63,679 nucleotides of DNA from a virus. The notes under the pieces are model-generated. The model ran no database searches and had not been told where the DNA came from. It was given only the letters and a program-made list of their open reading frames with translations. The translations under genes were made by a program, and so were the position numbers. Each line of letters begins with the position of its first letter. Position 1 is the stretch's first letter. Of this stretch, positions 12,021 to 62,831 are shown piece after piece. The stretch spans positions 1 through 63,679 of the IMG/VR virus record IMGVR_UViG_3300023184_000116, one strand, 5' to 3'.

Positions 12021-12125
12021 TTAACTCCTTAGAGATGTTTTATCTATTGCTATGTTGGCTGACTGTAGGCAATCGCCATAAGACTCATGATCTTGAGTCG
12101 GGCAACCCGAACGACAAACCGACAT
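12021..12125 (-). CDS. CRxGC-motif peptide, short form (34 aa)
   Basis: A 34-aa peptide starting MSVCRSGCPTQDHESYGDCL. Its ATG overlaps the stop of the fibre gene (TAATG), and an AGGAG in its last codons serves the next gene. The same gene in the same position follows the other fibre at 46897-47004, so the short form travels with the shared fibre tip. Confidence 0.6.
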   Translation of the reverse strand: MSVCRSGCPTQDHESYGDCLQSANIAIDKTSLRS

Positions 12126-13951
12126 TAGCCCCAAGTTCCTAGTGATGTTGTGCTTGATGAACCTAACTCAACTAAAGAACCATAAGACTCTCGGTTGATT
12201 GTCATGGTTGTACCATTGACCGCACTAAGACTCAATTTCGGTTGGAAGTATAAACCACTTGCAGCTGTACGCAAAATACCCGAGATTCTTAGTTGGAATA
12301 CCTGGGCAGTGGCTGAGCCAGCAATAGTTCCGCCAATTTGCCAGTTAGCGGTTGTGCCATTTATGAATGCTCCGAAATCGTTAGTGCTTAACCAGTTACC
12401 GCTGCTTGATGATCCAATGAAACCTGCTTGATGCGTAATAAAATTAAAGTTTGATACTGCATCGCCAGCAATAGTCAAACGCAAACTAGCACTCGCTGCT
12501 GTTGTGTTGCTGATAGTGCCACTAAGTAAGTAATCAACATAATAGGTTTTGCTGTTGCCAACTGTTACTCCATTTGATAATCCAAACGGATCATAACCAG
12601 TTAAAGCTGATAAATTGCTTCCACTGTTTACACTGACATTGTTACTGGGTGAATACCACAACGAAGGTGCAAGTGCGTTGGTTGCAAGTTTTGCCGCAGT
12701 CACACTGTTGTCGGTCAAGTTGGCACCAGGCAAAGAAGTTAAAGATGCGCCACTGCCTGAAAAACTTGCAGCAGTAACAATGCCCGAAGCACCAACCGAA
12801 GCAACCGCAGTTCCACCGTTGTATTGCCATTCTTGCAAGTTCTGCTGAGTAGCAGTCACAACAATCTGACCACCAGTGCCAGTGCCATTCGTACCCTGCA
12901 AAGAAGTGACTCGGATAGTTGTTGCAGAAACCACAGTGATTGTTGTCGTTCCGTTGAAGTTTGAATCCGAGAACCCAGACAACACAACAGACTGACCAGC
13001 AACCAAACCGACAGTCGAACTGAAACCGCTAACAGTGTCAAAGGTAACACCAGCACCGCCAGTGTGAGTTGCAGTCAAACCAGTAATGGTCAACGAACCA
13101 GCAGGCTTCACAACCATCGGCACAGCTGAAGTCGAAGTTGATTGAACAAGAACCTGACCAGAACCAGTCTGCGACAAGTTGCCTGAACTAACCGCAACCG
13201 CACCAGTGAAAGTTGCACCCGACAAATTGGCTTTAGTCGCATCACTGTTATGCACATGATCCGCGCGAGCGTACCTGGTCGAAGTTCCAACCGCAGCAGT
13301 TCCATTGTTAGCCGGTGTTGCCGAGGCAGCCTGACCAAGAACAAACGCGGTTGAAGCAACCTGAGTTGTGTTTGTATCAACTGAAGCAGTCGGCGCAGTA
13401 GGCGTGCCAGACAATGCAGGATTCGAACCAAAAGAAGTCAATGCCGAACTTGTGCTGGCCGAAGTCAACAAAGTTGCTGATGCTGGAATTGTTGTGCTGT
13501 TGACCGATGTCACATTAGGAAGTGAAGTTGTTGCAGTTGTGACCAAAGTTGCTGATGCTGGAATTGTTGTGCTGTTAACTGAAGTCACATTCGGAAGCGA
13601 TGTTGTTGCAGTTGTAACACCATTGGTGACAGTCGCAGCATTGCCATCGATGCTCACGCCAGTCAAAGTCTGAGAAGCTGACGAACGGTTGATTGCTAGA
13701 GCAGTCGTGCCGACATACATTGTTTGATTAGTAGCAGCCTTGCCAGCAACAGTTGAATCAAGAGCAGTCAATCGAGCAACAACAGTCGCCGAACCGCCCT
13801 GCGGATTCACACCAAGCGTGACCTGAACAGCCGACATTGCATCATTGATGTTGTCATGCTGGGCAGCATGTGGAACAGTTGCGCTGTCAAGCGTGTCAGT
13901 TGCAGTTGGGTTCACGAATGAATCCAATGCGCCAGGGTAATTGGTCGACAT
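12125..13951 (-). CDS. Tail fibre protein (N-terminus phage A type)
   Basis: A 608-aa fibre. Residues ~1-75 (MSTNYPGALDSF ... QHDNINDAM ... LGVNPQGG) form the tail-attachment domain common in siphophages. Then come two copies of a 25-aa repeat (TTSLPNVTSVNS...), the YARADHVHNSD motif and a long C-terminal receptor-binding part. The C-terminal part is shared with the 1082-aa spike at 47004-50252 and identical at DNA level over 12453-13084. If the window is a fusion at this repeat, the native phage A fibre would be 13951-12453 continued by 47331-47004. Start chosen at ATG 13951 with AAGGAG 5 nt upstream, just after a terminator. Confidence 0.8.
   Translation of the reverse strand: MSTNYPGALDSFVNPTATDTLDSATVPHAAQHDNINDAMSAVQVTLGVNPQGGSATVVARLTALDSTVAGKAATNQTMYVGTTALAINRSSASQTLTGVSIDGNAATVTNGVTTATTSLPNVTSVNSTTIPASATLVTTATTSLPNVTSVNSTTIPASATLLTSASTSSALTSFGSNPALSGTPTAPTASVDTNTTQVASTAFVLGQAASATPANNGTAAVGTSTRYARADHVHNSDATKANLSGATFTGAVAVSSGNLSQTGSGQVLVQSTSTSAVPMVVKPAGSLTITGLTATHTGGAGVTFDTVSGFSSTVGLVAGQSVVLSGFSDSNFNGTTTITVVSATTIRVTSLQGTNGTGTGGQIVVTATQQNLQEWQYNGGTAVASVGASGIVTAASFSGSGASLTSLPGANLTDNSVTAAKLATNALAPSLWYSPSNNVSVNSGSNLSALTGYDPFGLSNGVTVGNSKTYYVDYLLSGTISNTTAASASLRLTIAGDAVSNFNFITHQAGFIGSSSSGNWLSTNDFGAFINGTTANWQIGGTIAGSATAQVFQLRISGILRTAASGLYFQPKLSLSAVNGTTMTINRESYGSLVELGSSSTTSLGTWG
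12453..13084. repeat. 632-bp exact direct repeat, copy 1
   Basis: Base-for-base identical to 47332-47963 (constant offset 34879), ending at single mismatches 12452/47331 and 13085/47964. Similarity of lower identity continues on both sides to the fibre stop codon and at least 200 nt upstream. It lies in the fibre C-terminal coding region. Confidence 0.95.
13470..13619 (-). repeat. 75-bp tandem duplication in fibre gene
   Basis: Two adjacent 75-bp units encode the 25-aa block TTATTSLPNVTSVNS...ATL twice, with a handful of mostly silent differences. A third, partial relative occurs in the other spike gene. It presumably sets shaft length. Confidence 0.8.
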
Positions 13952-14279: not shown

Positions 14280-15623
14280 TTAGTAACCTGATGGAGCGAC
14301 GGTGCCAGTGCCAGAGATCAAGGCAGCGTTCTTTGCAAAGCGATGTGCAAGAGCAGCGTAACCGTAAACCTGGAAACGAACGGTTAGGTTCGCTGACAGA
14401 ACATCTGGAAGTACGCGAGTCTTAACACCTGATTCGAACAAGTAAGAATCAGAGAACTTGCCAAGAAGAATCGGTGACTGGTTTGTTCCAGCGCCGTAAG
14501 TCTTGGTCATAGTTGCATCAACGTAAACAGGAACACCGTAAATTGAACCAACAAGACCAGCAGGTGCACCAGGGCTTGTAGTAATACCTGAAGCATTGAA
14601 TGGACCATTAGCGGTAGGAACAATTAGTGGACGGCTTGAACCATCAACTTGTGAAGCGAACCAATACCAAGTGCTCGGATGCATAACAATTGCTTCAACA
14701 GCTTTGTAACGGTTTGTGACAACCTGCGAAATTGCTTTCGTGATCGCGGCAAGGCCGTTCGGTGCAGATGGAGTTGCTTCAGTCCAAGTAACAGGAAGAC
14801 CCGCAGCAGCTGAGGTAACAAAACCTTTAAGCGTGCCAGAAGTTCCGTCACCGGTACCAACAACAGCGGTGTTTAGCTGCAACGCGTAATCAGCCATAAG
14901 ATCACCAAATACAAGACGATCAAGACCGCCAGCAATTGGTGACTGTTCAACAAGCTGGATCGAAACGTTCTCGTAACCACTGATCGTCTGAACAGGTGCG
15001 GTGATGGTTGAAGTAACCAAATCGCGTGGTGTTGTTGGCGCCATTGTGCTTGAGTTATCAGCTGACTGGAAACCAACACGTGTACCGGTTGTGATCGCAG
15101 GAATGTTGATTGAATCAGTTCCAGCAGGTAGCGCCATCTTTGTTACAAGATCAGCGGTTACACGAGCAGCACGAGCAAATTCCGCGTACTCATTGATTAG
15201 GTACAAAGGCGGAACAAAATCGCCACCGCTTGTATCCGTACGGTTAATGTCGCGTGTTTCAACAGCAACTTCTTGCTGATGACGATGCAAGCGTTCCCAT
15301 GAAGTTGAATCATTGCGAAGCTGTGCATTGATCATGTCGCGAACGAAAGAGTTATCTGAACCCTTATCGTACGTCATGGCTTCGCGAGTTACAACAGCAG
15401 AACCAAAAGCCTTAACACCTTCAGCTGCGCGTGCTTCTTTAATAGAAGCGGTGCGAGCTTCAAGCGCTTCAGCGCTTTCAATTTTGGCATCAAGATCTTT
15501 GATCTCTGCCTGACGTGCTTCGACGGCGTCCAATGTTTCGGTGGACGCTTCGCCAGCAAGCAACGCCTCCGCGTCAGCTGCAGCGGTGCTGCGCGCTTCG
15601 CGTAGATTGTCAAGTAATGACAT
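14280..15623 (-). CDS. HK97-type major capsid protein (phage A)
   Basis: Builds the siphophage head. The N-terminal ~105 residues are a charged coiled coil (LDNLREARSTAAADAEALL, EARQAEIKDLDAKIES), the delta/scaffold domain removed by the prohead protease. The remainder carries capsid-fold landmarks such as GGDFVPPLYLINEYAE, SADNSS, YENVSIQLVEQSP and the C-terminal AYAALAHRFAKNAALI. The ATG at 15623 with AAGGAG upstream is preferred to an upstream start. It follows the protease gene directly, the standard HK97 order. Confidence 0.9.
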   Translation of the reverse strand: MSLLDNLREARSTAAADAEALLAGEASTETLDAVEARQAEIKDLDAKIESAEALEARTASIKEARAAEGVKAFGSAVVTREAMTYDKGSDNSFVRDMINAQLRNDSTSWERLHRHQQEVAVETRDINRTDTSGGDFVPPLYLINEYAEFARAARVTADLVTKMALPAGTDSINIPAITTGTRVGFQSADNSSTMAPTTPRDLVTSTITAPVQTISGYENVSIQLVEQSPIAGGLDRLVFGDLMADYALQLNTAVVGTGDGTSGTLKGFVTSAAAGLPVTWTEATPSAPNGLAAITKAISQVVTNRYKAVEAIVMHPSTWYWFASQVDGSSRPLIVPTANGPFNASGITTSPGAPAGLVGSIYGVPVYVDATMTKTYGAGTNQSPILLGKFSDSYLFESGVKTRVLPDVLSANLTVRFQVYGYAALAHRFAKNAALISGTGTVAPSGY

Positions 15624-15701
15624 TTGCGTTTCTCCTTTTGAGAATAGTTGTTTGTTGTGTTGCAATCCGCCGGGACCAAAGTGCCGGGGGAAATCTATGT
15701 G

Positions 15702-17096
15702 TTAGCGATTCTTTGAATTGCTAAACTTTTGTTTTAACTCAAGCATTCGTTTACGTAACTCGAGTGCTTCCTGTTCAGCGTCTTCAGCTGAAGCGGTGCG
15801 CATTCCAATAGTTGTTGCATCATAAGCTGGCCAAGTAACAACAGAAACTTCGAACAAGTTTAGATCTTGCAAAGTACGAAGACCATCATTGCGAGTGTCA
15901 CCATCAGGCGCAACAGTGAAAGCGAAAGACATTTTAGAAACATCACCACGTGAAACAGCTGAGGCAAGTTCCTGTGCGCGAGGATTATTTGGATCTAGAT
16001 CTGCTTCCATCCATAAACCTGTTTTATCTTGACGCAATGACATTGTGCCTGATTGTGTTGAAGCAAGAGGCAAACTATCCGTGTCATGATTAACAAGCAG
16101 GAACACTGGTTCATCTGAATCAAGTGTGCGAGTGAAAGCGCCTGGCGCAATCACTTCACGAAACGATAAACCTGTTGCTTCCTTGTTAAACTGTGCAGCA
16201 TAACCACCAATTCGCAGAGAAGTCGAATCGGTAGAAAGTGAACGAACCTCACAGTCCATTGTTACTCGTTCAGCTAAAGCCATTTTTGATTTACGTGATT
16301 CCATTTCAACATCCTCATCGCGTGGTTCAATTGTTTCAACAGGTTCAAAATCAAGATCTGCAGAGTTCATTTGCATTACCGGTTCAGCATCATCATCCTC
16401 GTCAATGCCTTGAGCATCAACTGGATCAGGTGAAGGTTCATTAACTTCTTCACCAAGCGAAGCGGTTAACTGCCATTTGTAAAACTGTTGATTATCAATT
16501 GCGCCAGCAATAAAGTTTGCAATGCCTTGTTGATTGTAACTTGTTGCACAATCAAACACGTCAGCTAGTTGATCCAAGAAAACATTATTTGCATCTAAAA
16601 GATCTCTAGCAAGTTCCATTGGGTCTTGACCAGGCTTTGAATCCTGTAAGTAACCAAGCGCAGCAAACTCGGCCAAAGTTGAAGGTGCAACAACACCGAT
16701 CTTGCGCAAGTTCTCTGCAATAGGATCAACGAGTTCATAAGCTGTTTCATAAATCTTTTGAAACAATTTATGGTACTCACTAAAGTCTGCACCTTTAACA
16801 TTCCAATGTGCGCCATGCGCACGGAAATAAAATTGAACAGCAGTTCCAAGAAGTTCTGTTAATTCCTCGGGCAAGTCCGAAACTGTTTCGGTTTCTTCCA
16901 TGTCGAGAGATTCCATGCTTTCGCCTTCCAATAAAGCCACGCGGGCAGATAACTTGTCGAGAATCTTTGAAGCCCATGCTCGGCCTTCAACCCCTGTTGC
17001 TTTGCTTATTGCTACAACATCAACTAACTCTATCGAGTCAACATCAATGCCTCGTTCTGTTTGAACAATTTTTGGTACACGAAAAGTTTGAGACAT
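15702..17096 (-). CDS. Dps-like ferritin domain fused to HK97 prohead protease
   Basis: Two domains in one 464-aa chain. Residues ~80-215 match Dps: HWNVKG with His97, His109, Asp124 and Glu128 at the exact spacing (12, 15, 4) of the Dps ferroxidase ligands, plus the YKWQLTASLGE C-terminal helix. An acidic linker (216-265) leads to an S78 prohead protease at ~285-435: GGYAAQFN, VIAPGAF, NHD (His337), KMSFAF (Ser390) and VSVVTWPAYD. The C-terminal ~30 residues form a charged helix. The protease would cleave scaffold domains during head maturation. The Dps part, normally iron-storing and DNA-protecting, would be carried into the procapsid. Upstream overlap with portal (ATG at 17096 shares the portal stop). 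Confidence 0.85.
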   Translation of the reverse strand: MSQTFRVPKIVQTERGIDVDSIELVDVVAISKATGVEGRAWASKILDKLSARVALLEGESMESLDMEETETVSDLPEELTELLGTAVQFYFRAHGAHWNVKGADFSEYHKLFQKIYETAYELVDPIAENLRKIGVVAPSTLAEFAALGYLQDSKPGQDPMELARDLLDANNVFLDQLADVFDCATSYNQQGIANFIAGAIDNQQFYKWQLTASLGEEVNEPSPDPVDAQGIDEDDDAEPVMQMNSADLDFEPVETIEPRDEDVEMESRKSKMALAERVTMDCEVRSLSTDSTSLRIGGYAAQFNKEATGLSFREVIAPGAFTRTLDSDEPVFLLVNHDTDSLPLASTQSGTMSLRQDKTGLWMEADLDPNNPRAQELASAVSRGDVSKMSFAFTVAPDGDTRNDGLRTLQDLNLFEVSVVTWPAYDATTIGMRTASAEDAEQEALELRKRMLELKQKFSNSKNR

Positions 17097-18322
17097 TAAC
17101 TAAGCACTCCCATGACTGGAACAGATTTATCAGTATCAGTGCCAGTTGCTGGTGAATCAGTTGTTGTTTGACCAGGTAATGCTTGATGGAAATCGTCACC
17201 GCCAACATAGGGTTCATAGCCTTCTGTTTGACGAGCCTCATTTGGTGTGAGTGCGCCCATTGCAATTTGCATTTGACTTACACGAGCACGAGTTAAAGCA
17301 TCGGTGCGTAACAAGACAGAGGTGTCAAAAACAACATCAACATTTGGTGCAAGTATCTTTGAGAATGCAATCTCAAGACGACGAAGCCAAGGCGTGATCG
17401 TGAAGATCAAGAAATTCAATGATGCTTGTTCAACATTTTGGTAAGTCTGGTTATCACCAATCGCACCAATTAAGTGTGAAGGAATTCGATAAATTCGTGC
17501 AATGTCACGAATCAACTGTTCACGTGATTCAATCATTTGCGCATCAGCAGCTGATGTTGTAATTGGTTTGAACTTTAGACCATCACTCATCACAGCTGGG
17601 CGACGATGACGACGATGAGTTGATTCCCATGTTCCTTGAATAACACGAGCCTGATCCAATGTCAACTTGCCATCGGTTTCCAAAACACCTGAAGGCGTTG
17701 CACCCTCACCGTAAAACTGTGACAAATGGCGATCCATTGCAAGCGATAACCCGACAAGGTTGCGTGACTGGATCAAAGGCGAAACACCAACCAATGATTG
17801 CGGTGGAGTGAACGTGCGAATGTGTAAAACATTTTCAGCATCCATCTCATTACCGAGATGCAAATAGCGACGCGAAATCTGATCACCTGTTGGAAGCACT
17901 TGCATCTGATACGGATGCAAAGGAACTAAACCAATCGGTGTACCAGACTTGTCACGATCAATGTGAATGTACGCGTTACCGTGCAACACTAGTGAAGCCA
18001 TAACCGTGTGAACAAACTCAAACGAATTAGTACCAGATGCAGGATCAGGATCAGCAATAAGCTGCGGAACAGGAACAGACTTGCGATTACCAGCTGGATC
18101 AATCTCGTAACCACGAAGCGGAAGCGATGCAACAGAATCAGCTAGCAAAGAAACAGCGGAAAGCACGGATGAAACACCAAGTGCAGTCCACTCATCGATG
18201 CGTTCACCAGCTGAAGACGTGATCGTGGTTTGACCATACAACTGTGAAAGCGGTGCAACATAGTTATTGAATTGCGGGTAACGCCCTGAAACATCGCCAA
18301 CACCGCGGCGCAGAATACTCAT
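17096..18322 (-). CDS. HK97-type portal protein (phage A)
   Basis: Forms the dodecameric DNA gate of the siphophage head. The 408-aa length and segments ALGVSSVLSAVSLLADSVASLPL, GNAYIHIDRD, VLHIRTF, LIGAIGDNQTYQNVEQ and ALTPNEARQTEGYEP are typical of the HK97 portal family. Its ATG overlaps the stop of a tiny membrane-protein gene, and the downstream protease gene begins at its last base. Confidence 0.9.
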   Translation of the reverse strand: MSILRRGVGDVSGRYPQFNNYVAPLSQLYGQTTITSSAGERIDEWTALGVSSVLSAVSLLADSVASLPLRGYEIDPAGNRKSVPVPQLIADPDPASGTNSFEFVHTVMASLVLHGNAYIHIDRDKSGTPIGLVPLHPYQMQVLPTGDQISRRYLHLGNEMDAENVLHIRTFTPPQSLVGVSPLIQSRNLVGLSLAMDRHLSQFYGEGATPSGVLETDGKLTLDQARVIQGTWESTHRRHRRPAVMSDGLKFKPITTSAADAQMIESREQLIRDIARIYRIPSHLIGAIGDNQTYQNVEQASLNFLIFTITPWLRRLEIAFSKILAPNVDVVFDTSVLLRTDALTRARVSQMQIAMGALTPNEARQTEGYEPYVGGDDFHQALPGQTTTDSPATGTDTDKSVPVMGVLS

Positions 18323-18480
18323 GACCTATCCGCCAAGAAAGCAAAAATCATTGCAAAGACTCCGCCCAAAATAAGAGACACCGACAAACCGAATAATCTG
18401 CCAACACCAACGATGATTGAAAACGCCCCTGCAATTTCGACAATCGCAGTAACGATTGCACGATCAAAAAACTTACGCAT
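18319..18480 (-). CDS. Two-helix membrane protein between terminase and portal, 53 aa
   Basis: The 53-aa product is almost entirely hydrophobic (IVTAIVEIAGAFSIIVGVG and LSVSLILGGVFAMIFAFLA), consistent with two transmembrane helices. The start overlaps the terminase end by 8 nt and the stop overlaps the portal ATG, so it is translated within the packaging operon. Small membrane proteins occupy this site in other actinophages; role unknown. Confidence 0.6.
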   Translation of the reverse strand: MRKFFDRAIVTAIVEIAGAFSIIVGVGRLFGLSVSLILGGVFAMIFAFLADRS

Positions 18481-20047
18481 TTGTCTCCCCTAAATCCATG
18501 CTCCAAGGATCAGAAATCATTCTAGTAACTGCACCTTGCAGCGAATAAAACGCAGCACGTTCAACCGCCATAACCGCAGCAACAGCTAGATCGATTCGTC
18601 TACTTGAATACCTTGATTCCTTTGCCAATCTGTAACCACGTGCATCCTGTTTCAAAGTCGCGTTAGCAATGTGACGAGACAAACGAGAATCACCGTCATG
18701 CGTCATTGAATCATTCATTACCGATTCAAAAAACCTTTGAGTCGCTGGCGTCATACGCGAAGCAGACTGTGGGAACAAAACAATCGGCAAACCTTCATCC
18801 TCAAGAACTTGAAACGTTCTCGCCCAACGATACGGGTCACAAGCAATCTCACGAACGTTAAACATTTCACAAGCATTACGAATCGACTGCTCAACATCCA
18901 TAATCGGAACTTGCCAATCAGCGTCAGCGTTATGTGGTTTCTCCCAGCAATCCCAAACAAAAAGATGAGGATTCTCATCGGTTGTTGCAGCAACAATCGC
19001 GGTGCAGTCACCGTTAAAGGAGCCATCAAACGCAAGCACAATGTCCGAACCAGGTTCAATGATCTTTGCTTTATCAACGACAGAATCCCATGAACCAGCT
19101 GGAAGCCAAGTATCAGATGTTGCAACCCATTGATTACAGCGCTTAGTTCTAAACTCAACCTCGGGCGTTCGCTGGATAACCGCTTCAAAATCTTCCTTTG
19201 AAACAATGTCATCAAAACCAGGGTTCGCAGCTTTCCATGTTGCAACATCACGATGATCAGAATCCTCAGGTGCTTCCCACCACGACATGAAAAACGATGG
19301 ATCATTGATCTCACCGGATGCAACACGTTTGCCATACTCGTACAAACCAAAACACAAAGACTCTTGACCAGATGAATCCATGCGCACACCAGCTGTAGTG
19401 ATACCAATCATCATTGGTTCCTTACGAGCACCAGCCGCAAGCTGCATAACATCCCAAAGCTCACGAGAAGGCTGAGCATGAACCTCGTCAAACGCAACAA
19501 GGGTTGGCGACAAACCTTCTTTAGTAAACGCTTCAGCTGAAAGCGCACGATACGTTGTACCAGTTTTTGGGTTGTAAACCGTGTCGCGATACACTTGCAA
19601 AAAATCTGAAAGATCAGGTTGCAACCGGATCATCTCTTTAACCGTGTCAAAAACGATTTTAGCCTGCGCACGATCAGCTGCGCAAGAATAAATCTCACCA
19701 CCGGATGGACCAAAAACAATGTGCTCAAGAGCGATCGCTGAAAGCCAAGCAGACTTGCCGTTCTTACGAGGAAGACCAATCAACGCTGTGCGATGACGAA
19801 GAGTCCCATCAGCTTTAACCGCGAACAATCTTTTTGTAAGATCTTTCTGCCACGGTCTAAAAATCATTGGCTCGCCAGAACTACCCGCGATCGAATCCTT
19901 TGTGATTTTACAAAGCGCCTCGGCGAAAGCAACCACATCATCACCGCGACTGCGTTTAAGATCTACAGCCGGAACATTAGTCAACCATCGAGGATCGTTC
20001 TTACTTGCCTTTGGCTTGGCGCTGTTGGATAAGTTGGTCAAGAGCAC
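18473..20047 (-). CDS. Terminase large subunit, HK97 type (phage A)
   Basis: ATP-driven DNA-packaging motor with nuclease. Walker A is GLPRKNGKS (about residue 90), Walker B with catalytic Glu is TLVAFDEVHA (about 183), and the nuclease domain has VLAFDGS (about 343) and later acidic residues near RRIDLA. The 524-aa length is normal for Terminase_1. The start is a GTG at 20047 inside the end of the small-subunit gene (47-nt overlap). Confidence 0.92.
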   Translation of the reverse strand: MLLTNLSNSAKPKASKNDPRWLTNVPAVDLKRSRGDDVVAFAEALCKITKDSIAGSSGEPMIFRPWQKDLTKRLFAVKADGTLRHRTALIGLPRKNGKSAWLSAIALEHIVFGPSGGEIYSCAADRAQAKIVFDTVKEMIRLQPDLSDFLQVYRDTVYNPKTGTTYRALSAEAFTKEGLSPTLVAFDEVHAQPSRELWDVMQLAAGARKEPMMIGITTAGVRMDSSGQESLCFGLYEYGKRVASGEINDPSFFMSWWEAPEDSDHRDVATWKAANPGFDDIVSKEDFEAVIQRTPEVEFRTKRCNQWVATSDTWLPAGSWDSVVDKAKIIEPGSDIVLAFDGSFNGDCTAIVAATTDENPHLFVWDCWEKPHNADADWQVPIMDVEQSIRNACEMFNVREIACDPYRWARTFQVLEDEGLPIVLFPQSASRMTPATQRFFESVMNDSMTHDGDSRLSRHIANATLKQDARGYRLAKESRYSSRRIDLAVAAVMAVERAAFYSLQGAVTRMISDPWSMDLGETNA

Positions 20048-20462
20048 TCACTCGTTTCACTTCGGCTACCCCTAGGCGAGATCGCGAAACAGGATCCAAG
20101 CCGAGACTCGCGAGAGCATCGGCAAAGGACTTGGACAAAATAGAAAGCAAACGACCATCGGCATTATCGAGAGTCGCGTGAAACTTATTACGAGCCGCAG
20201 CAAGATCATCCGCTAACCGAGCTGCGTTTGTAATCGCTTCAAGATCTGAATCAGGTGAAAGCCATGTGATCGCAAGCGACCAACAACCCTGCCAAACCTT
20301 TTTACCTTCAACACCAAGATCAATTGGTGCATCCGGAATCTTTGTCGCCATCGGCAACGGTGTAACCTGAGCAAGCTCAGGAAGTTTTCTTCCACCAGAG
20401 TCCCGACCAGGTGACCGACCTGTCGCGCGTTTGAGTTCCGCTGGGCGAGGCTGACGAGCCAT
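20001..20462 (-). CDS. Terminase small subunit, P27-like (phage A)
   Basis: DNA-recognition partner of the packaging motor. The 153-aa protein begins with a basic, Pro-rich tail (MARQPRPAELKRATGRSPGRD) and continues as helical bundle segments (LEAITNAARLADDLAAAR, SFADALASLGLDPVSRSRLG), the pattern of phage P27-family small subunits. ATG at 20462 is preferred; it lies downstream of an AAGGGG. Confidence 0.8.
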   Translation of the reverse strand: MARQPRPAELKRATGRSPGRDSGGRKLPELAQVTPLPMATKIPDAPIDLGVEGKKVWQGCWSLAITWLSPDSDLEAITNAARLADDLAAARNKFHATLDNADGRLLSILSKSFADALASLGLDPVSRSRLGVAEVKRVSALDQLIQQRQAKGK

Positions 20463-20566
20463 AATCAAAAACCCCTTAGTTTTTGGAAACTGAAAATTGT
20501 GAGCGTGTGTGTCCCGGCTTGGGACTCGGGTGTCGGTGATTGAAATAGAAAAAACGGAAATGTGTT

Positions 20567-27840: not shown

Positions 27841-27972
27841 TCTTGTCCTTTGTTTGTCCTATCAGCTGTCCGGCTGATAAGACCATTCTATACACAAACC
27901 AAAAGCAAAAACTACCATTTCAGCAACTTTTTTTTAACTATTTTTTTCCTTTATTTCCAATGCTTTTTCTAG
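27841..27972 (-). promoter_or_regulatory. Repeated early promoter module, copy 1
   Basis: On the minus strand: an A-rich tract, the box ATGGTAGTTTTT, a variable 9-13 nt, extended -10 TGTGTATAGAAT, then a 7-bp stem-loop TATCAGC-CGGACA-GCTGATA at the predicted mRNA 5' end and an AAAGGAC ribosome-binding site. Its A-rich end also encodes the last residues of the upstream 357-aa protein. Confidence 0.75.
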
Positions 27973-31059: not shown

Positions 31060-31176
31060 CCTTTTGTCCTATCAGCTGTCCGGCTGATGTTTCTATTCTA
31101 TACACAAACCAGAAGTAAAAACTACCATTTGGACAACTTTTTTTTAACTATTTTTTTCCTTTATTTCCAATGCTTT
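31060..31176 (-). promoter_or_regulatory. Repeated early promoter module, copy 2
   Basis: Same elements as at 27841-27972: A-rich tract, ATGGTAGTTTTT, TGTGTATAGAAT, hairpin ATCAGC-CGGACA-GCTGAT and AAAGGA. Here the A-rich part is non-coding, because the upstream dUTPase-like gene ends just before it. Confidence 0.75.
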
Positions 31177-31610
31177 TACGCGCTACAGCTAGATTCAGTG
31201 CACAAAACACCATCATCATCTAGTGCACGTTTGCAAGTTTTACACTTACCAGACACACCATCATAGCCATGCAACTGTCGCGCAGCATTGATCTCTGCTT
31301 TCTTTTTATACACTTCAAAAACATCATCAGCTGTCCAACCAATCGCGAGCCAAAGATTAACAAGAAAATGCAACGCGTCAACAAGTTCACTACCAAACGA
31401 TAACTGGTTAACATGTCGACTCTTCGCCCACGGTTTCCAACCACACTCTGCTAGCGCTTCATGCAACTCGTCCTGTAGTGCAAGATTCATCATCGCAATG
31501 TACTCTGCTTTTGCAACCGGGTCAAGCGTGTGTGGTTCAACACCGAACGATTCCTTTTGCAAACGCGCTTGTCGTTCAAAGATCAATTTCAATGTGTCAA
31601 TGTTTGTCAT
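31176..31610 (-). CDS. Dimeric dUTPase/dCTPase-like NTP pyrophosphatase
   Basis: All-alpha MazG/dUTPase_2-type enzyme: QDELHEALAE supplies the first metal-binding acidic helix, ELVDALHFLVN the second, followed by KKAEINAARQLHGYDG. It would hydrolyse dUTP and possibly dCTP to the monophosphate used by the ThyA-family enzyme and dCMP deaminase. Unusually it ends in a short zinc ribbon (CKTCK ... CTESSC). The ATG overlaps the deaminase stop. Confidence 0.75.
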   Translation of the reverse strand: MTNIDTLKLIFERQARLQKESFGVEPHTLDPVAKAEYIAMMNLALQDELHEALAECGWKPWAKSRHVNQLSFGSELVDALHFLVNLWLAIGWTADDVFEVYKKKAEINAARQLHGYDGVSGKCKTCKRALDDDGVLCTESSCSA

Positions 31611-36143: not shown

Positions 36144-36279
36144 GTCTTGTCCTTTGTTTGTCCGTTCATCAGCTGTCCTGCTGATAAGACCATTCTATAC
36201 ACAGTTTGTGGGTAAAAACTACCATTTTGGCAATTTTTTTTAATTATTTTTTTTCCTTTATTTCCAATGCTTTTTCTAG
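36144..36279 (-). promoter_or_regulatory. Repeated early promoter module, copy 3
   Basis: A-rich tract, ATGGTAGTTTTT, TGTGTATAGAAT, hairpin ATCAGC-AGGACA-GCTGAT (loop base changed, stem kept) and AAAGGAC. It is preceded upstream by a terminator, so it starts the long early operon 36143 to about 32.1 kb. The 36144-36434 gap otherwise shows only that terminator and ~100 nt with no signal I can name. Confidence 0.75.
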
Positions 36280-41528: not shown

Positions 41529-43130
41529 TTACACTCCAAGAATTGAAGGGTTGAGTCCTCGACGACGCATCAGCTGAGCAATGTTGTCGCGAACCGTAAC
41601 CGCCAAATCGCGCTCATGAACAACCGAGCCAGAAACATTGATGACAACATTCATGCCACCGAGTCCACCAAGTTTATTATTAGGTGTCACATAACCATTT
41701 CCACCCATTGTGAGAAGTTCTGGGCCACGCTCGCCGACAATGTAAGAAGCACCGGCAGCAGCAGGACCACCAAGCGCAAGATAACCATTTGGGCCAACAC
41801 CTGGAACAGGAGTGCGCAAACCAAACAAAGGTTGATTCTTAACAGTGTGCATCCAAGGTCGCTCAAATTGTTCATCTCCGTTAAACCAAACCATGCCATG
41901 GCCTGCATCGGCACTGGCTGGCGAATGCAAGTCAGTCCATCTCTGTCGTTGCACTGGATCATTGCCAACCAACGACATTCCTGTTTTGTCTTTTTCCCTT
42001 TTTTGCTCCTCGGTTTCTCCGCCTGGCATACTCAAGCCACTCCACATTCCAGACAAACCGAAAGCGGCGAATACTGCACCAGCAGCCAATGCTTGAACAG
42101 CGAGCAAAGTTCCACCAGATGCTGCCGCTTCAGCTGCTGCGGTAGTAACCGCAACACCACGAGTGACAGCCATCACAGTATTGATTGCTTTGAATGCGGT
42201 GGTCATTGTGGAAACCGCAGCACCAATTTTGCCAACAGCCCAAAATGTCCCCATTGCAGCAGCAATGTCAATGACAACTTGTTTGTGATCACCAATCCAT
42301 TTCAAAACAGAACGAACTTCAGTTCCCCACTTTTTGACAGAGTCATAAGCGTGATCTCCACCGTCTTTCACGCCAGTCAAACCATCAACAAAAGCCTGAA
42401 CATTCGGAACAACAGTGTCAGTCAAATAGGTTGCTATTTTCTCGACAATAGGCATCAAGGCATAACCGATTTGTTCCTTGGTTTCATCAACCGCAATCTT
42501 CAATCGACCAAATCGACCCTCAAGGGAATCGGCTGCGCCAGCAGCCTGACCGCTGAAAGTAGTGGACAAAATCTCAAACGCCTTCTTGGTGTCCTTCGAC
42601 TTGATAACCGAAGCATCCAAACCAAGTCCAAGACGCTGAAGCGATGCAAGGTTTCCACCATACGCTTTACCTAACGCGTTAGAAACAGTTCCAAGATCTT
42701 TACCTGTACCAGCCGAAATGTCTAGCGCAAGTGTTTGAAGTTGTTGCGCCTCTGTAACATCCTTGGTCGCAGTGACCAAACGCTGCAATGAAGGTCGCAA
42801 CTTGTCATCAACAACACCGTAACGGGCTTGTGTTTTAGTAATGTAATCCTCAACGCTGGCAGTCTGCGCCTTAGTCGCACCGACTGTGTTCTTTAAGGCA
42901 ATAGCCAATCGGCGTTGCGACTTCTCATCAGCAATCGCGTTCTTGATTGACGAAACAGCAAGTGCACCAGCAGCAGCACCAACAGCAAGAAATGAAGTCG
43001 CAGCGACCTTGCCCATTTTCTTAAAATGTTCGCCAGCACTTCCAGCTTCTTTTCCAACACCTTTGAGAGTTTTGCTGGCGTTAACATCTTTGCCATAAAT
43101 AGCATAAACAAGATCAGTCACTTTGGCCAT
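41529..43130 (-). CDS. Tape measure protein
   Basis: 533 aa, helical N-terminal third with Ala/Lys heptads, two hydrophobic stretches (MAVTRGVAVTTAAAEAAASGGTLLAVQALAAGAVFAAFG), and a C-terminal part with SYIVGERGPELLTMGGNGYV, a motif seen at the ends of many tape measures. It sets tail length; at this size the tail would be short, under 100 nm. Preceded by the frameshifted chaperone gene with GGAG over its stop. Confidence 0.85.
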   Translation of the reverse strand: MAKVTDLVYAIYGKDVNASKTLKGVGKEAGSAGEHFKKMGKVAATSFLAVGAAAGALAVSSIKNAIADEKSQRRLAIALKNTVGATKAQTASVEDYITKTQARYGVVDDKLRPSLQRLVTATKDVTEAQQLQTLALDISAGTGKDLGTVSNALGKAYGGNLASLQRLGLGLDASVIKSKDTKKAFEILSTTFSGQAAGAADSLEGRFGRLKIAVDETKEQIGYALMPIVEKIATYLTDTVVPNVQAFVDGLTGVKDGGDHAYDSVKKWGTEVRSVLKWIGDHKQVVIDIAAAMGTFWAVGKIGAAVSTMTTAFKAINTVMAVTRGVAVTTAAAEAAASGGTLLAVQALAAGAVFAAFGLSGMWSGLSMPGGETEEQKREKDKTGMSLVGNDPVQRQRWTDLHSPASADAGHGMVWFNGDEQFERPWMHTVKNQPLFGLRTPVPGVGPNGYLALGGPAAAGASYIVGERGPELLTMGGNGYVTPNNKLGGLGGMNVVINVSGSVVHERDLAVTVRDNIAQLMRRRGLNPSILGV

Positions 43131-44161: not shown

Positions 44162-45157
44162 TTAGAGTTCTGAATCTAGTGTCTTGTAAGTGATGGTGAA
44201 CGGTGCATCAGTGCCATTGTCAAAGACAGTGAAACCGAAACTGACATCGATAACGCCAGGGCCAGAAACCATTGGTGTGTCACCATCGAACTTCGCGGCT
44301 GGAATTGTGATGCTGAGAGTTTCTTTGTCAGAAGCTGAACCAATCGTTGCGCCTTCAAAAGTTAGTTTCAAGCCAGCAGTTGAGTCAGCCAAGAACTTAT
44401 CCAAAAGAACAGTGTCGGTGAACTCAGCTGTGACTTTGCCAGAGATTGCTCGGAAACCGTTGATGATTTGTTCAGACTTTGAACCTGCTGCGCCTAAGTT
44501 GTAGCGATCAGTTTTCAACGAGTTGTCAACAGTCAAACTGAAGTCCTTGATGTTGGCATAAGTAGTAGGCGAGCCAGCATTGTCAGTGATTGAACCCTGA
44601 GCAAAGTGGAACAAGTTACTTGTCGCAATGTTTGTATAGGCAACGGTCGCAGAGGTTGATGCACCTGTTGTGAAACCTTTGCTGTCCAGACTGAACTTCG
44701 CTTTGGCGATGTCGCCAGAACCAACAGACAGTTCGAAGTTGGTTATCTTGCAACCGCTTAAAGTTTTGTAAGTTAGAGTCCCACCGTATTGAGGAACAGC
44801 AACTTGAGTTGTGAAACTATCGCCAATCAAATCTTGTGCGGTGAATAGGTAGGTGTAAGTCCCATTGGAACTGCTTGGTGTTGGAACTGAACCAGTTGCA
44901 AGACTAAGCAACAAACCCATTCCGCGAGTCTGCATGTCAACTTCGAAGTCGCCTTCACCAGCAAGAGTTGTGACAACGCGGCGATTCGCGCGAGCAACCA
45001 ATCCGCCGTTGCGAAGTCCTTGACCAACAACAGTGTTCTTGACATACTTTGTGCCTTCACTGTTGAACTCATAGAAACGTTCAACAGTGACAGCAGTGCC
45101 GAAACTTGATTCCTTTTTGATGCCTAGCCACGAGCCAATGCCTGAGCCGATTGCCAT
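44162..45157 (-). CDS. Major tail tube protein
   Basis: 331 aa, beta-rich; segments GSWLGIKKESSFGTAVTVERFYEF, DFEVDMQTRGMGLLLSLATG, CKITNFELSVGSGDIAKAKFSLDSKGF and YKTLDSEL are of the style of actinophage tube proteins. It would polymerise into the tail tube. It starts 3 nt after the previous stop and is followed by the gp10-like gene. Confidence 0.75.
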   Translation of the reverse strand: MAIGSGIGSWLGIKKESSFGTAVTVERFYEFNSEGTKYVKNTVVGQGLRNGGLVARANRRVVTTLAGEGDFEVDMQTRGMGLLLSLATGSVPTPSSSNGTYTYLFTAQDLIGDSFTTQVAVPQYGGTLTYKTLSGCKITNFELSVGSGDIAKAKFSLDSKGFTTGASTSATVAYTNIATSNLFHFAQGSITDNAGSPTTYANIKDFSLTVDNSLKTDRYNLGAAGSKSEQIINGFRAISGKVTAEFTDTVLLDKFLADSTAGLKLTFEGATIGSASDKETLSITIPAAKFDGDTPMVSGPGVIDVSFGFTVFDNGTDAPFTITYKTLDSEL

Positions 45158-46896: not shown

Positions 46897-47004
46897 TCAC
46901 TTCACTTTCAAAGATGTTTTATCAATTGCAATGTTTGCAGCTTGTAAACATTCACCATAAGAATTATGATCTTGTGTTTTGCAACCAGATCTACAAACAG
47001 ACAT
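46897..47004 (-). CDS. CRxGC-motif peptide, short form (phage A side), 35 aa
   Basis: Reads MSVCRSGCKTQDHNSYGECLQ..., ~75 percent identical to the peptide at 12021-12125. ATG overlaps the spike stop (TAATG), exactly as the other copy overlaps its fibre. It shows that the shared segment between the two phages includes the fibre tip and this gene. Confidence 0.6.
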   Translation of the reverse strand: MSVCRSGCKTQDHNSYGECLQAANIAIDKTSLKVK

Positions 47005-50000
47005 TAGCCCCAATTTCCTAGTGATGTTGTGCTAGATGAACCTAACTCAACTAAAGAACCATAAGACTCTCGGTTGATTGTCATGGTTGTGCCATTGACT
47101 GAACTAAGACTTAATTTCGGCTGAAAGTATGAGCCAGATGCAGCTGTACGCAAAATGCCAGAGATTCTTAGTTGGAATACCTGGGCAGTTGCTGAGCCTG
47201 CTATTGTTCCACCGATTTGCCAGTTAGCAGTTGTGCCATTGATGAAAGCCCCAAAATCATTAGTACTTAGCCAGAGGCCATTAGATGACGAACCAATGAA
47301 ACCTGATTGATGAGTAATAAAATTGAAGTTAGATACTGCATCGCCAGCAATAGTCAAACGCAAACTAGCACTCGCTGCTGTTGTGTTGCTGATAGTGCCA
47401 CTAAGTAAGTAATCAACATAATAGGTTTTGCTGTTGCCAACTGTTACTCCATTTGATAATCCAAACGGATCATAACCAGTTAAAGCTGATAAATTGCTTC
47501 CACTGTTTACACTGACATTGTTACTGGGTGAATACCACAACGAAGGTGCAAGTGCGTTGGTTGCAAGTTTTGCCGCAGTCACACTGTTGTCGGTCAAGTT
47601 GGCACCAGGCAAAGAAGTTAAAGATGCGCCACTGCCTGAAAAACTTGCAGCAGTAACAATGCCCGAAGCACCAACCGAAGCAACCGCAGTTCCACCGTTG
47701 TATTGCCATTCTTGCAAGTTCTGCTGAGTAGCAGTCACAACAATCTGACCACCAGTGCCAGTGCCATTCGTACCCTGCAAAGAAGTGACTCGGATAGTTG
47801 TTGCAGAAACCACAGTGATTGTTGTCGTTCCGTTGAAGTTTGAATCCGAGAACCCAGACAACACAACAGACTGACCAGCAACCAAACCGACAGTCGAACT
47901 GAAACCGCTAACAGTGTCAAAGGTAACACCAGCACCGCCAGTGTGAGTTGCAGTCAAACCAGTGATAGTCAACGAACCAGTTGGCTTCACAACCATTGGC
48001 ACAGCTGAAGTCGAAGTTGATTGAACAAGAACCTGACCAGAACCAGTCTGCGACAAGTTGCCAGAAGTAACCGCAACCGCACCAGTGAAAGTTGCGCCAG
48101 ACAAACTGGCTTTAGTCGCATCACTGTTATGCACATGATCTGCGCGAGCGTATCTGGTCGAAGAACCAACCGCAGCAGTACCATTATTAGCCGGTGTCGC
48201 TGAAGCAGCTTGACCAAGAACAAATGCAGTAGTTGCAATTTTTGTTGAACTATTATCAACTGCCTGAGTATTGGCTACAGGATCAGTGCCAAACGAAGTC
48301 AACGCCGAACTTGTACTAGTAGAAGTCAACAAAGTAGCAGAAGCTGGAATTGCAGTGCTGTTAACTGAAGTCACATTTGGAAGTGAAGTCGTTGTGGTGT
48401 AAACACCATTAGTAACAGTAGCAGCATTACCAGTTGTACTACCTGATGAACCTGAAACATTGCCAGTTATGTTAGCGGTAATAGTACCAGCACTAAAATT
48501 ACCTGAACTATCACGAGCAACAATAGCGCTAGCAGTATTAGCATCAGTTGCAGTAGTTGCACTATTAGAAACTTTACCGGCAGTAGAAATAGTTGCTAGC
48601 TTTGTATCCGCAATAGCGGCTGAAGCATTAATATCACCATTAACAATAGTTCCATCAAGGATCATTGTCGAGGTAACAGTGCCAGTGTCAGTTGTATAAA
48701 CACCATTAGTGACAGTAGCGGCATTACCTGTTGTACTTCCAGAAGTCCCTGAAACATTACCAGTAACATTACCTGTCAAAGGTCCTGAAAAAGAGTTAGC
48801 AGTAATAGAACCATTAGTGGTCAAATTGGAACTATTGTCCATAGACCAGTTATTCTGGTACACATTAGTTGGTGACGAAGAAGAACCAGTACGCTCACCA
48901 ATGTTAGGACCACGCCGCAAAACAGTATTGCTACCACCATCATAAAAACCAGTAGTAACACCATGAAGGAACGAAGCACCAGAAACACTTACATAACTGT
49001 TGCCATTGAAACTAGCACCATACTGCGGTGAAACAGTACCAGTAGCATCATCATTGTTCCCTGGGTAAGTTACAAGCGAATCAACTAAAACAGGTACAGT
49101 AGCAGAAGAAGCTTTGAAACCTGCATAAGATCCGCCACCAGAGTTACCATTACGACCATCACGGCGAGCAGAACAACCATTGAAAACAATAGGACCATTG
49201 CCTGTGGCATCAACATAGAAACCGTTATAGTTGTTTCGATCAGTTGTACAGCCAGTGAATACTGCACCGCCTGAACCGGCAGGGGAAGTACCCCAACCGC
49301 CAGTTACATAAAAGCCATGCTGACCAGACCACTCGGAACGACAGTTAGTGAATACACTGTTGGCGGCAGCAGAAATAAGCCAGCCAGATAATGTGGCATA
49401 AATAGACTGGCAACTAACAAAGTTAGAGTCAGTCATGTTACCTACAGAAAAACCGTAGTTAGCGCAAGATCGAGCAATGGTTTCTGTAACATACCAAGAG
49501 TAAGGTTTTTGTACACTGGAATCTGTACGAGTGTAAGTACCAGCAGCAATACCATTATGTGGCATGAACTGAACAGCAACATTATGAATAATGACTTCAC
49601 GAACATTGCCGGTAGCATAAATGCCACGAATCACACCAGAAGCAATAGCAGAACCATCAATGGTGAGATTGATTATTCGTTGACCAGTAGACTCGTAAGC
49701 GTAACCACCTTCTTCTTTATCCAACATGCGGATAATGGCAGAACCACTGAAAGTGGAAGCAGCTTTAATCATTGAAGGTTGTGGAGTACTTACAGGTGCA
49801 GAGTTGTAAAAGATCCTGTTACCGTGTGTACCCTCAAGGGTAATAGTTGGTAACAAAATAAGAGGTGCTGTTACTCGGAAAGTTTTAGCAGGGATCCAAA
49901 CGATACCACCAGCAGGACAAGCATTAATAGCGTTCTGGATAGCTGTAGTATCATCAGTGGTGCCATCGCCTACAGCGCCATAATCAAGAACATTGATAAT

Positions 50001-50947: not shown

Positions 50948-52195
50948 CTAGCTAGCGATACTTGAAGAAGTAGCGATGCGGTACAAGGATTCCTGACGGT
51001 AAACCTTGAAGCCAAGCACACCGTACCAACCGATTGGTCGGAAACGCATCAACTTGTCAACAACAGGGCCAATAACCACGTGTGGTTCTTCAGCGACTGC
51101 TTCAGCAAGAGCCTGCTTACCAGCAACGATTGTGCGGTAAACCTTGGTTGTTGCAGTGAAAGTGATGGTGTTTGTTCCAACAGCACCAGTGTTAGCCAAG
51201 TCTACAGTGATCGTTAGACGGTCTGCTGAGATAGCGGTAATACGTGCGTATGTAGCAGCAGCAACACCAGAACCAGGAGCAGTAGCGCCACCAGCAGTGT
51301 TAGTGCCAGAGATAACGTAACCAACCTGAATAGCTGAATCGATTGCTGTAGCGAATACGATTGTGAACGCGCCAGATGCACCAGAAGCAGCAGCCTTTGT
51401 GTAGGTTGTTGCAGTGGTTGCACCTTCGTAAGTCTGAACACCGTTAACTACACCTGAGTATAGACGTGGTGATTCAACGTACATAGCACCTTCGTAAACG
51501 CCGATAGCGCCTGGCCATAGCTGACCTGCACCTGACTCGTTGTAGATGTGGGCATCGCGCCAAGCGCCTGCACCAGTCTCTGCACGAAGATCGTGTGAAA
51601 CCTCTGGGTGAATACCACACCAGTATAGGTCGTCAACACGTGGCACAGCCTTGTTGGTGCGAAGCTTAGCAACAACTTTACGCATGTCAGCTGAGGTGAT
51701 AACACCACCACTCTGGGTTACAGAAGCGGTAGAAGTTCCATCACCGTAGATAACGTTGGTACCTGAACGAAGTTCAGTTAGCGCAACTTCGTCAATGCTG
51801 TCAGCCATGTTGAAGGCGATGATGTCAGCGATTGCTGGATCAACGTCTGAAAGGCTGAATAGCTCTAGTTTGCGAGTTGCAAGCGAAGCGTTACCGTATT
51901 CAGCAAGAGTTACTGGAACTGAAGTGGTGTTACCGAAACCAATAGCATCAGGATCAACAGTCTCAGAAAGAGGGGTTGTTGCCTTAGCAAGGTCTGTGTA
52001 AAGCTGGAACACAACAGAAGAACCAGGCATAGCCTGCTGAACTGGGCGCTTATCTGCTACATCGCGGATAAGTGGGACTGCACGAAGTGCAAATTCGACA
52101 TACCGGTCATACGCGGTCTGGACCAGTGAGGTACCAAGCGAGCTGCCCGATGTGTCGGTGTAAGTATTAGAGGAACCGTAAGGTGTATTTGCCAT
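50948..52195 (-). CDS. Major capsid protein, N4 gp56-like (phage B)
   Basis: 415 aa; N-terminal motifs YDRYVEFALRAVPLIRDVADKRP, PGSSVVFQLYTDL, NMADSIDEVALTEL and C-terminal VVIGPVVDKLMRF ... LGFKVYRQESLYRI match N4-gp56-family capsid proteins. A Ser/Gly/Thr-rich beta insertion (~275-350) may be a surface-exposed domain. It follows the scaffold gene and precedes spike genes. Its unrelatedness to the HK97-like capsid at 14280-15623 supports two phages. Confidence 0.8.
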   Translation of the reverse strand: MANTPYGSSNTYTDTSGSSLGTSLVQTAYDRYVEFALRAVPLIRDVADKRPVQQAMPGSSVVFQLYTDLAKATTPLSETVDPDAIGFGNTTSVPVTLAEYGNASLATRKLELFSLSDVDPAIADIIAFNMADSIDEVALTELRSGTNVIYGDGTSTASVTQSGGVITSADMRKVVAKLRTNKAVPRVDDLYWCGIHPEVSHDLRAETGAGAWRDAHIYNESGAGQLWPGAIGVYEGAMYVESPRLYSGVVNGVQTYEGATTATTYTKAAASGASGAFTIVFATAIDSAIQVGYVISGTNTAGGATAPGSGVAAATYARITAISADRLTITVDLANTGAVGTNTITFTATTKVYRTIVAGKQALAEAVAEEPHVVIGPVVDKLMRFRPIGWYGVLGFKVYRQESLYRIATSSSIAS

Positions 52196-61010: not shown

Positions 61011-62831
61011 TTATCCTGCTGGAATCATTCTTGCAACGGATGCTGCAAGATTTGGTGTTCCTCGTGACGTTAAGCCAGCGAGAAGTTGTTGAACGGCAGG
61101 GCGGCCACCTGGACCCATACCTGCTTGACCTGGAACCACCGTAGGTGCCATGCCCGTACGTGGATTTAATTCGGCACCACCAGCACTAGGCATGCCGGCT
61201 TCGGGGGAACCTGGAACAGGCTCGACCCCTACAGGTGCTGGTGGCGGTACTGGAGCAAACGCGGCAATAACCACTTCCTCTAATGATTTACCTTTACGGC
61301 GACCATCAATAATGTTTGCAACCTTAGACAAAACCTCTGAAGGATCCCCACCACTCTGAGCAAGCATAGGAATCGCTTGAGCATAACCAGCAACAGCCTG
61401 AATCAAAGCATCCTGGAGTTTCTCAATCTCAATCTTTTGTTCTTCCATCGTGACATTAACTTCCCAAGGCATCTGTCTACGCAAAAAGTCACGACTAATA
61501 AGCTGATCGCCACGAGCCTGCAAACCAAACACAAGAGCCTGGTTAGGGTTAAGGCCAGCCATAAGACCATAAGTCACATCAACAATGTGTTCCCCAGAAA
61601 TGTCCTTTTTAGGGGTGTAAGTAACTTCGTAAGGTGAACCTGCATCCACACCACGAACAGTCTTAGTAACATCACCAAAAATTGCTTCATCGATCTGGAA
61701 ACAAATGTCAATAACATCGCGGAACGCACCAGCCAAAACAGACTGTGCAGTCTTAACCTGTGTATCGAAACCACCCATAAGGGCTTCAACACCACGACCA
61801 GTAACAATGGAACCAGACTGATTACCTAAACGGCCCTCAGGATACCTAGCACCGGTACGTAGTTCCTGATCCAAAGCAGCTGATTCTTGGAACAAACCAG
61901 GTGGAACATTAAGATCGACACGGCGGATCTTCTCAGGGTTAGCTGAACGAATAGTCGCATCAGGACCAATCTCCAACACATTAACGTCAGCAGGTAAAGC
62001 AAAAGGTGCCTGAACAGATTTCTGTGCAGCTTCAAGTGACAATGTAGCGAAACGGCTACGAGCGACCTGAACCCAAAGTACATCATCAAACTGGCCACGA
62101 AGATTCTCATCAGAATCAATACCAGGTCGAACAGCACAAACAACCATAATCTTACCAATAGGGTTCTTTGTTTTCGCTAAAACATAGTCTTTGCGTTCAG
62201 GTAAAAAGAGAACCGTTTGGTCTTTATCGTGGTAACGAACCAACTCTAGTTGGGCATTTTGCCCACCCTGCTGGTAACGACCACGAATAACAGCTTCATG
62301 CTCTGGGAACTCCATGCACAAATCTTCAATAGTCTTTAAGTAACGCTTACTGTAAGACAATAAACGACCAAAGCGGTCAAACTCAGGATACGAATTGTAT
62401 GGATCATCAACCCGAATAATAGGAGTATTGCGATCATAATCGATCTCAACAACAAAAGGAACCATACCGTAAGTGATGTAACGGTCAGCACCAGTAAACA
62501 TGTGAGTCTGCAAGCGAGACTGGTCACGATAACCAGCAACAATCATCGTACGCTTATCAGCACGTTTACGTGCAGCTTCAGACACAACATTAGTAGCATT
62601 GCAGTTAAACGCAGGAAGCGGTGCAATAACTTCAGCCACATCGCGGGCAGCAATGTCAATAAAGTTAGCCACCATAGGCTTAGGATAATCATCAGGGAAC
62701 AAACCAGGGAAAACCTTATTAATGTTACCCTTACGAACCTCACGCACATCAGACCAACGCTGATCGCGTTCCGCTGAACTACGGCGAAGATACTTCACAC
62801 GAGTAGTTATCTCGTCCATAGTTCTAGCCAT
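61011..62831 (-). CDS. Portal protein (phage B)
   Basis: 606 aa. SSAERDQRWSDVREVRKG, NFIDIAARDVAEVIAPLP, RYITYGMVPFVVEID and DDPYNSYPEFDR are typical of podovirus-like portals; the C-terminal tail is Pro/Gly-rich. It is preceded by the terminase large subunit (junction at 62831 shares a base). It would form the packaging vertex and hold the connector. Confidence 0.8.
   Translation of the reverse strand: MARTMDEITTRVKYLRRSSAERDQRWSDVREVRKGNINKVFPGLFPDDYPKPMVANFIDIAARDVAEVIAPLPAFNCNATNVVSEAARKRADKRTMIVAGYRDQSRLQTHMFTGADRYITYGMVPFVVEIDYDRNTPIIRVDDPYNSYPEFDRFGRLLSYSKRYLKTIEDLCMEFPEHEAVIRGRYQQGGQNAQLELVRYHDKDQTVLFLPERKDYVLAKTKNPIGKIMVVCAVRPGIDSDENLRGQFDDVLWVQVARSRFATLSLEAAQKSVQAPFALPADVNVLEIGPDATIRSANPEKIRRVDLNVPPGLFQESAALDQELRTGARYPEGRLGNQSGSIVTGRGVEALMGGFDTQVKTAQSVLAGAFRDVIDICFQIDEAIFGDVTKTVRGVDAGSPYEVTYTPKKDISGEHIVDVTYGLMAGLNPNQALVFGLQARGDQLISRDFLRRQMPWEVNVTMEEQKIEIEKLQDALIQAVAGYAQAIPMLAQSGGDPSEVLSKVANIIDGRRKGKSLEEVVIAAFAPVPPPAPVGVEPVPGSPEAGMPSAGGAELNPRTGMAPTVVPGQAGMGPGGRPAVQQLLAGLTSRGTPNLAASVARMIPAG

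Follow-up and report, generated by a model that had tools for sequence, protein, structure and literature searches.

Dps-like ferritin domains are, as judged from predicted proteins, fused in either order to several classes of phage head maturation protease, and the fusion genes lie mostly between the portal and the capsid genes. One such gene is present in the window (the whole stretch of 63,679 nucleotides analyzed here, positions 1 to 63,679 of IMG/VR record IMGVR_UViG_3300023184_000116), where a Dps domain and an S78 prohead protease occupy one chain of 464 residues, as an earlier note on this DNA had claimed. The gene, its parts and its neighbors are as follows.

20001..20468, minus strand: terminase small subunit (phrog_83, 1.7e-7)
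18473..20047, minus strand: terminase large subunit (Pfam TerL_ATPase and TerL_nuclease)
17096..18322, minus strand: portal protein gene, directly upstream of the fusion (Pfam PF04860, 1.1e-78)
15702..17096, minus strand: Dps-S78 fusion gene, 464 aa (ATG at 17096, stop at 15704-15702; homologous fusions in relatives)
16884..17096, minus strand: N-terminal segment, residues 1-71 (the window's short version, without a named family; most relatives have a longer phrog_2859 module)
16452..16883, minus strand: Dps/ferritin-like domain, residues 72-215 (Pfam PF00210, phrog_3636, phmmer against the PDB, AlphaFold2, Foldseek)
16806..16808, minus strand: ferroxidase ligand His97 (sequence; ligand conservation)
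16770..16772, minus strand: ferroxidase ligand His109 (sequence; ligand conservation)
16725..16727, minus strand: ferroxidase ligand Asp124 (sequence; ligand conservation)
16713..16715, minus strand: ferroxidase ligand Glu128 (sequence; ligand conservation)
16272..16451, minus strand: acidic linker, residues 216-275
15774..16271, minus strand: S78 prohead protease domain, residues 276-441 (Pfam PF04586, 2e-39; phrog_80)
16086..16088, minus strand: protease His337 (invariant in the family alignment)
15927..15929, minus strand: protease Ser390, in the KMSFAF motif (invariant in the family alignment)
14280..15665, minus strand: HK97-type major capsid protein gene, directly downstream (Pfam PF05065, 2.2e-20; phrog_2263, 1e-49)

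The fusion as a single gene

The plus strand of 15702-17096 has stops throughout, and the fusion is a single ORF on the minus strand. The matched frame was free of stops in 25 of 25 related contigs, most of them with the Dps domain and a few without it (e.g. L119, L124). Because the window seems to contain two phage head modules, chimerism of the contig was considered, and with it the reading that an assembly or frame error had merged two separate genes. However, the same one-frame fusion recurs in many other, separately assembled contigs, with the portal gene before it and the capsid gene after it, and an erroneous joining was therefore ruled out, its probability being practically nil. The residue numbers given for the Dps and protease sites (His97, His109, Asp124, Glu128, His337 and Ser390) were all correct, and the acidic linker between the two domains was found as described.

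The second head set of the window comprises the C-terminal part of a terminase (62831-63613), a portal (61011-62831, phrog_104) and a major head protein (50948-52195, phrog_1357), and its tail genes include a tail tube (44162-45157) and a tape-measure-like ORF (41529-43130). The record probably joins two phages, with these second head and tail genes at 38-63.6 kb beside the set at 14-20 kb, and the second major head protein was matched in 0 of the 25 related contigs, many of which are fragments. The suspected joining leaves the fusion gene untouched. Two tail-fibre-like ORFs about 34.9 kb apart share direct repeats (12033-12332 and 46912-47211, 87% over 300 nt), a second direct-repeat pair lies in tail-fibre-like ORFs at 13464-13646 and 48325-48432, and it is possible that these repeats mark the joining or recombination point of the two genomes. 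A 115-nt repeat occurs in three copies over 8 kb (27853-27967, 31063-31177 and 36160-36274; 78-91% to the reference copy).

The Dps domain

Pfam Ferritin matched residues 78-215 of the window protein (1.4e-13), phrog_3636 (DNA binding protein, phage Dps family) matched residues 72-215 (4.7e-20), and the nearest solved relatives found by phmmer against the PDB were Dps proteins, with PA0962 Dps as the best (8ff9, 5e-13). The AlphaFold2 model, built with 15 family members, has helices at residues 75-99, 105-132, 159-186, and 190-214 and a short helix at 141-147, which make up a four-helix bundle of the ferritin type whose BC loop holds a short helix, the arrangement of the Dps family (pLDDT about 80-93 across most of the domain, with low confidence in the linker and the protease part). 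Only Dps proteins were found among the best 50 matches listed by Foldseek against the PDB (1n1q, TM to target 0.93, rmsd 1.3), so the structure prediction proposed in the earlier note as a check returned the expected bundle. Two full-length AlphaFold2 models were weak outside the Dps domain (mean pLDDT 61 and 53), and the arrangement of the domains was left unread.

The four ligands of the Dps family, His, His, Asp and Glu, are present at the spacing 12, 15, 4 (motif H-x11-H-x14-D-x3-E). In the phmmer alignment, DEPTAD of PA0962 Dps aligns with QQGIAN of the window, which replaces the acid pair by Q190 and N194; both residues are almost invariant across the phage Dps family, and this replacement might make iron entry weaker.

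The net charge is -6 for residues 1-71, -11 for the Dps domain and -17 for the linker, and a basic tail is absent. Since the domain and both of its flanks are acidic and lack such a tail, the protein sequence does not support direct binding or shielding of DNA by Dps, which had been one of the suggested functions. DNA binding is not a requirement of the Dps family as a whole; a basic tail occurs only in part of the family, and PDB entry 1o9r is, by its title, a Dps member that protects DNA without binding it.

The protease domain and its gene neighborhood

The S78 prohead protease proved intact. Peptidase_S78 of Pfam covers residues 282-441 (2e-39; 135.8 bits against a curated cut-off of 21), phrog_80 (head maturation protease) covers residues 240-455, and the catalytic His and Ser are conserved. 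The gene order is terminase small subunit, terminase large subunit, portal, fusion and HK97-type major capsid protein, which places the protease between the portal and the major capsid gene, and the start codon of the fusion shares the last base of the portal gene. By inspection, the N-terminus of the major capsid protein is a helical, delta-like region.

Frequency, conservation and mosaic make-up of the relatives

With the whole protein as query, 63 loci were found in IMG/VR, and Dps and S78 share one ORF in most of them. So that the presence of Dps could not bias the choice of relatives, IMG/VR was also searched with only the protease domain as query, and the Dps domain was present in 55 of the 59 distinct complete ORFs and absent in 4; when this set was clustered at 90% protease identity, 15 clusters had Dps, 2 were without it and 1 was mixed. 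All four ligands (HHDE) were kept in 59/59 protease-selected Dps domains that were aligned across the whole motif, with 5 further rows cut or unaligned at the motif. The invariant columns of this set number 40 of 158, so that other core residues are invariant too, and in a plain hypergeometric model, which takes no account of relatedness, all four ligands would fall among them with a chance of about 0.004. HHDE was likewise found in 144/144 distinct Dps domains from larger ORFs, with identities to the window as low as 38% (not all of these are protease fusions, and some scans used Dps motifs as search patterns), and in 73/73 free Dps proteins of later scans, some of which also used Dps motifs as search patterns. 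The median dN/dS against the window was 0.055 over 19 usable pairs in Dps and 0.069 over 44 in S78, with synonymous sites close to saturation in many pairs; by these estimates both parts are under purifying selection.

The relatives are mosaic in structure. The longer ones (about 600-750 aa) have an N-terminal phrog_2859 module, and an unnamed extra domain and/or a Hva1_TUDOR domain between Dps and S78, and the window and L001 are of the short form. L001 is 96% identical to the window in the protease and 69% in Dps, and L010 92% and 88%; from these differing identities we infer that the Dps part was exchanged by recombination. A few close relatives (L091, L119, L122, and others) are without Dps and fill its slot with another short segment that is probably helical, and Dps is therefore not essential for the head. 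In L091, L119 and L122 the segment is of the type 'AVDASMDAAQ...YYLICAADAAL'.

Dps domains on other head proteases

Further scans, which used as query L137 (the divergent fusion of an Actinomycetota MAG, 45% identity) and then other matches, extended the Dps domain to other head proteins. In a reversed-order class (L244, L247, and others), a divergent S78 comes first, followed by Dps and by an acidic and coiled-coil tail, and the model of this class has the Dps bundle (helices 198-342; best PDB match 8ff9, TM 0.84). L276 is a phrog_80 protease with a C-terminal Dps; L260 combines phrog_2753 and Dps, L332 phrog_9427 and Dps, and L289 Dps and phrog_15531 in one protein; and in the giant proteins L264 and L351 Dps occurs together with matches to a portal (phrog_859) and a head protease (phrog_18402). 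L260 and L276 are flanked by portal and major-head genes (the L260 portal by inspection), and L332 by a portal and a virion structural protein of phrog_1623; L289 comes with a portal and, a few genes further along, a major head protein, and L244 is followed by a major head gene. In the case of L247, a portal-like ORF lies on the opposite strand and a capsid-like ORF follows the fusion (both by inspection), and a capsid gene was sought next to the fusion of L264 and none was identified. In the reversed-order class (L244, L247, and others) a portal-like protein has the phrog_2859-type module as well, at its C-terminus, so several modules appear to shuffle between head proteins.

The Dps domains of the window and L247 are 47% identical, whereas their protease parts have no BLASTP similarity (E 0.17). 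Because the proteases are dissimilar while Dps is conserved to this degree, and because both domain orders occur, we read the sequences as pointing to movement of the Dps module between different head proteases; a single old fusion that diverged is unlikely, as it would not easily produce both the unlike protease parts and the two orders. In the Dps tree the order classes are mostly separate with several long branches, and many gains are not forced; origins were not counted from this tree, and the case for transfer is built on protease families and domain order.

The two intact domains in one chain, both apparently under purifying selection, would also fit a Dps that serves as a metal or redox sensor controlling the protease, for example by activation timed by iron or peroxide. 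However, Dps occurs before as well as after the protease, at very different distances and with whole domains between them, and a fixed allosteric coupling would be hard to keep across such arrangements; we regard this explanation as very improbable.

Proposed role of the fusion

S78 proteases work inside the procapsid and are then removed by self-cleavage. We give about an even chance to the proposal that the head protease carries Dps into the procapsid and that Dps acts there as an encapsulated ferroxidase or peroxide scavenger. On what is known of the family, the protease part would take the chain into the procapsid and would later cut itself loose. In Dps the ferroxidase site lies at the interface of two subunits; its residues would otherwise lack a reason to stay invariant, which is why we propose that the Dps parts would pair or assemble into cages inside the procapsid. 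Dps, free or linked, would then oxidize iron or remove peroxide at least until genome packaging, and perhaps in the virion. The fusion would work as cargo loading with the protease as the vehicle, and DNA binding by Dps would be unneeded. A full Dps cage is about 9 nm and could not leave via the portal channel, so Dps assembled inside would stay; single released Dps domains could be lost from the head.

The earlier note had likewise proposed that Dps is loaded into the procapsid. The intact domains, the gene position and the recurrence on head proteases agree with this, and the entry step itself is drawn from the behavior of the S78 family. The attachment of Dps to several different head proteases strengthens the case for entry, and such recurrence on unrelated protease families suggests that phages carry ferritin into capsids. 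The fuller claim that tailed phages repeatedly made the head protease a loading vehicle, and that their virions or procapsids hold a working iron-oxidizing Dps by the genome, is held tentatively, with the balance somewhat against it.

The main rival to an encapsidated ferroxidase, which we take as the most likely use, is a possible role of Dps as an oligomerization or internal scaffold module whose dimer or cage would set how many copies are present, bring protease chains together or activate them, or occupy the procapsid, and whose metal site would be conserved mainly for holding the subunit interface together; an internal scaffold was also the alternative named in the earlier note. Such a role would explain why close relatives can have another short segment, probably helical, in place of Dps, and it would explain the long acidic, coiled-coil, scaffold-like tail after Dps in the divergent class, and protease-scaffold fusions are well known from other head systems. 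However, the capsid protein appears to own an N-terminal delta-like region, so that an extra scaffold is not obviously needed; the full invariance of four ligands at 38-60% identity exceeds what fold maintenance usually requires, though other core residues are invariant; and the free phage Dps proteins keep the same ligands. We consider a scaffold role rather unlikely.

Free Dps and previous records

Among the complete Dps ORFs of the later scans (n=146), 94 were of stand-alone size and 52 were larger. A head-protease match was sought in the larger ORFs L281, L299, L305, L362 and L363 and none was found; Dps stands at the start of the ORF in L281 (4031-6073), L363 (5037-6161) and L299 (3959-4786), and Cys-rich stretches follow it in L281. 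Against an exclusively encapsidated use, the frequency of free Dps of the same family (94/146) argues, at the level of gene content, for cytosolic use too. Dps may act in the infected cell against iron-driven oxidative damage, with the fusion to an abundant late protein serving only expression or dosage; free Dps and oxidative-defence genes in phages have been proposed to protect the host (PMC8008677, and passages of PMC6802176), and free phage Dps genes were frequent in our scans. Set against this, the fusion partners are head proteases of several families rather than random late genes, and most of the product should end inside heads, which makes a purely cellular use of the fused Dps improbable.

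Among 50,697 phage records (from which those nearest to the window were possibly excluded), no isolated phage with the fusion was found with either the full protein or the Dps domain as query, and the matches were only to free Dps and to proteases without Dps. In cellular genomes, relatives were found at three loci only, each of them in a MAG. The Betaproteobacteria locus (L136) is likely a phage contig that was binned with its MAG, the Actinomycetota locus (L137) encodes a complete though divergent fusion, and L138 is a free Dps. The best match in the viral library was A0A6J7WIS1, 'Prohead protease [uncultured Caudovirales phage]' (432 aa, 460 columns, 42% identity).

The earlier note knew of no described phage with such a fusion, and the open-access literature, to which our search was confined, agrees, as no paper on a Dps-protease fusion was found there. 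As judged from metagenomic ORFs, however, the architecture is common in uncultured phages, and A0A6J7WIS1 aligns over nearly the full length, so that the architecture is probably already public in UniProt under a name that hides the Dps part. PMC12796354 was considered as a report of the fusion and rejected; DP in that paper is a decoration protein.

Comparison with known systems

The window protein resembles HK97-type S78 prohead proteases (PF04586, phrog_80) in its full domain, catalytic His and Ser and portal-capsid position, and differs from them by the N-terminal Dps, to which relatives add phrog_2859 and Hva1_TUDOR. It resembles Dps mini-ferritins, including the free phage Dps (phrog_3636), in fold, ligand motif and domain length, and differs in that the domain lies within a head protein, has no basic tail and has Gln and Asn in place of the acid pair of PA0962. 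Free Dps has been reported in Lactobacillus phages and 'Gratiaviridae' (PMC8008677). Lake phages have ferritin listed among genes against reactive oxygen (PMC6802176); these freshwater phages share with our case a ferritin-type gene and likely the same kind of habitat, while the main text of that paper concerns host protection and its relevant passages do not describe a fusion to a head protease.

In Flp-fusion encapsulins a ferritin-like domain is joined to the HK97-fold shell protein and internalized on assembly (PMC8346489). The likeness to these, and to encapsulins with ferritin-like cargo, is that a ferritin-like four-helix domain would be brought into an HK97-fold shell by fusion. The partner in encapsulins forms the shell of a cellular compartment, whereas ours is a maturation protease from a tailed phage, by which Dps would be internalized. 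Terminase and portal genes adjoin the fusion, which marks a phage head rather than a cellular compartment, and the likeness to encapsulins is an analogy only.

Significance

The recurrent fusion of Dps to different head protease families points to the usefulness of a ferritin in or near the forming head. If Dps stays in the head, phage particles would have iron chemistry close to their DNA, in a natural form of the ferritin-in-HK97-shell plan that encapsulins follow. If this is true, the fusion would be the viral counterpart of ferritin-loaded encapsulins, and it would bear on the designed loading of proteins into phage capsids, on the survival of phage genomes under oxidative or photochemical damage in lakes and on the iron content of virions.
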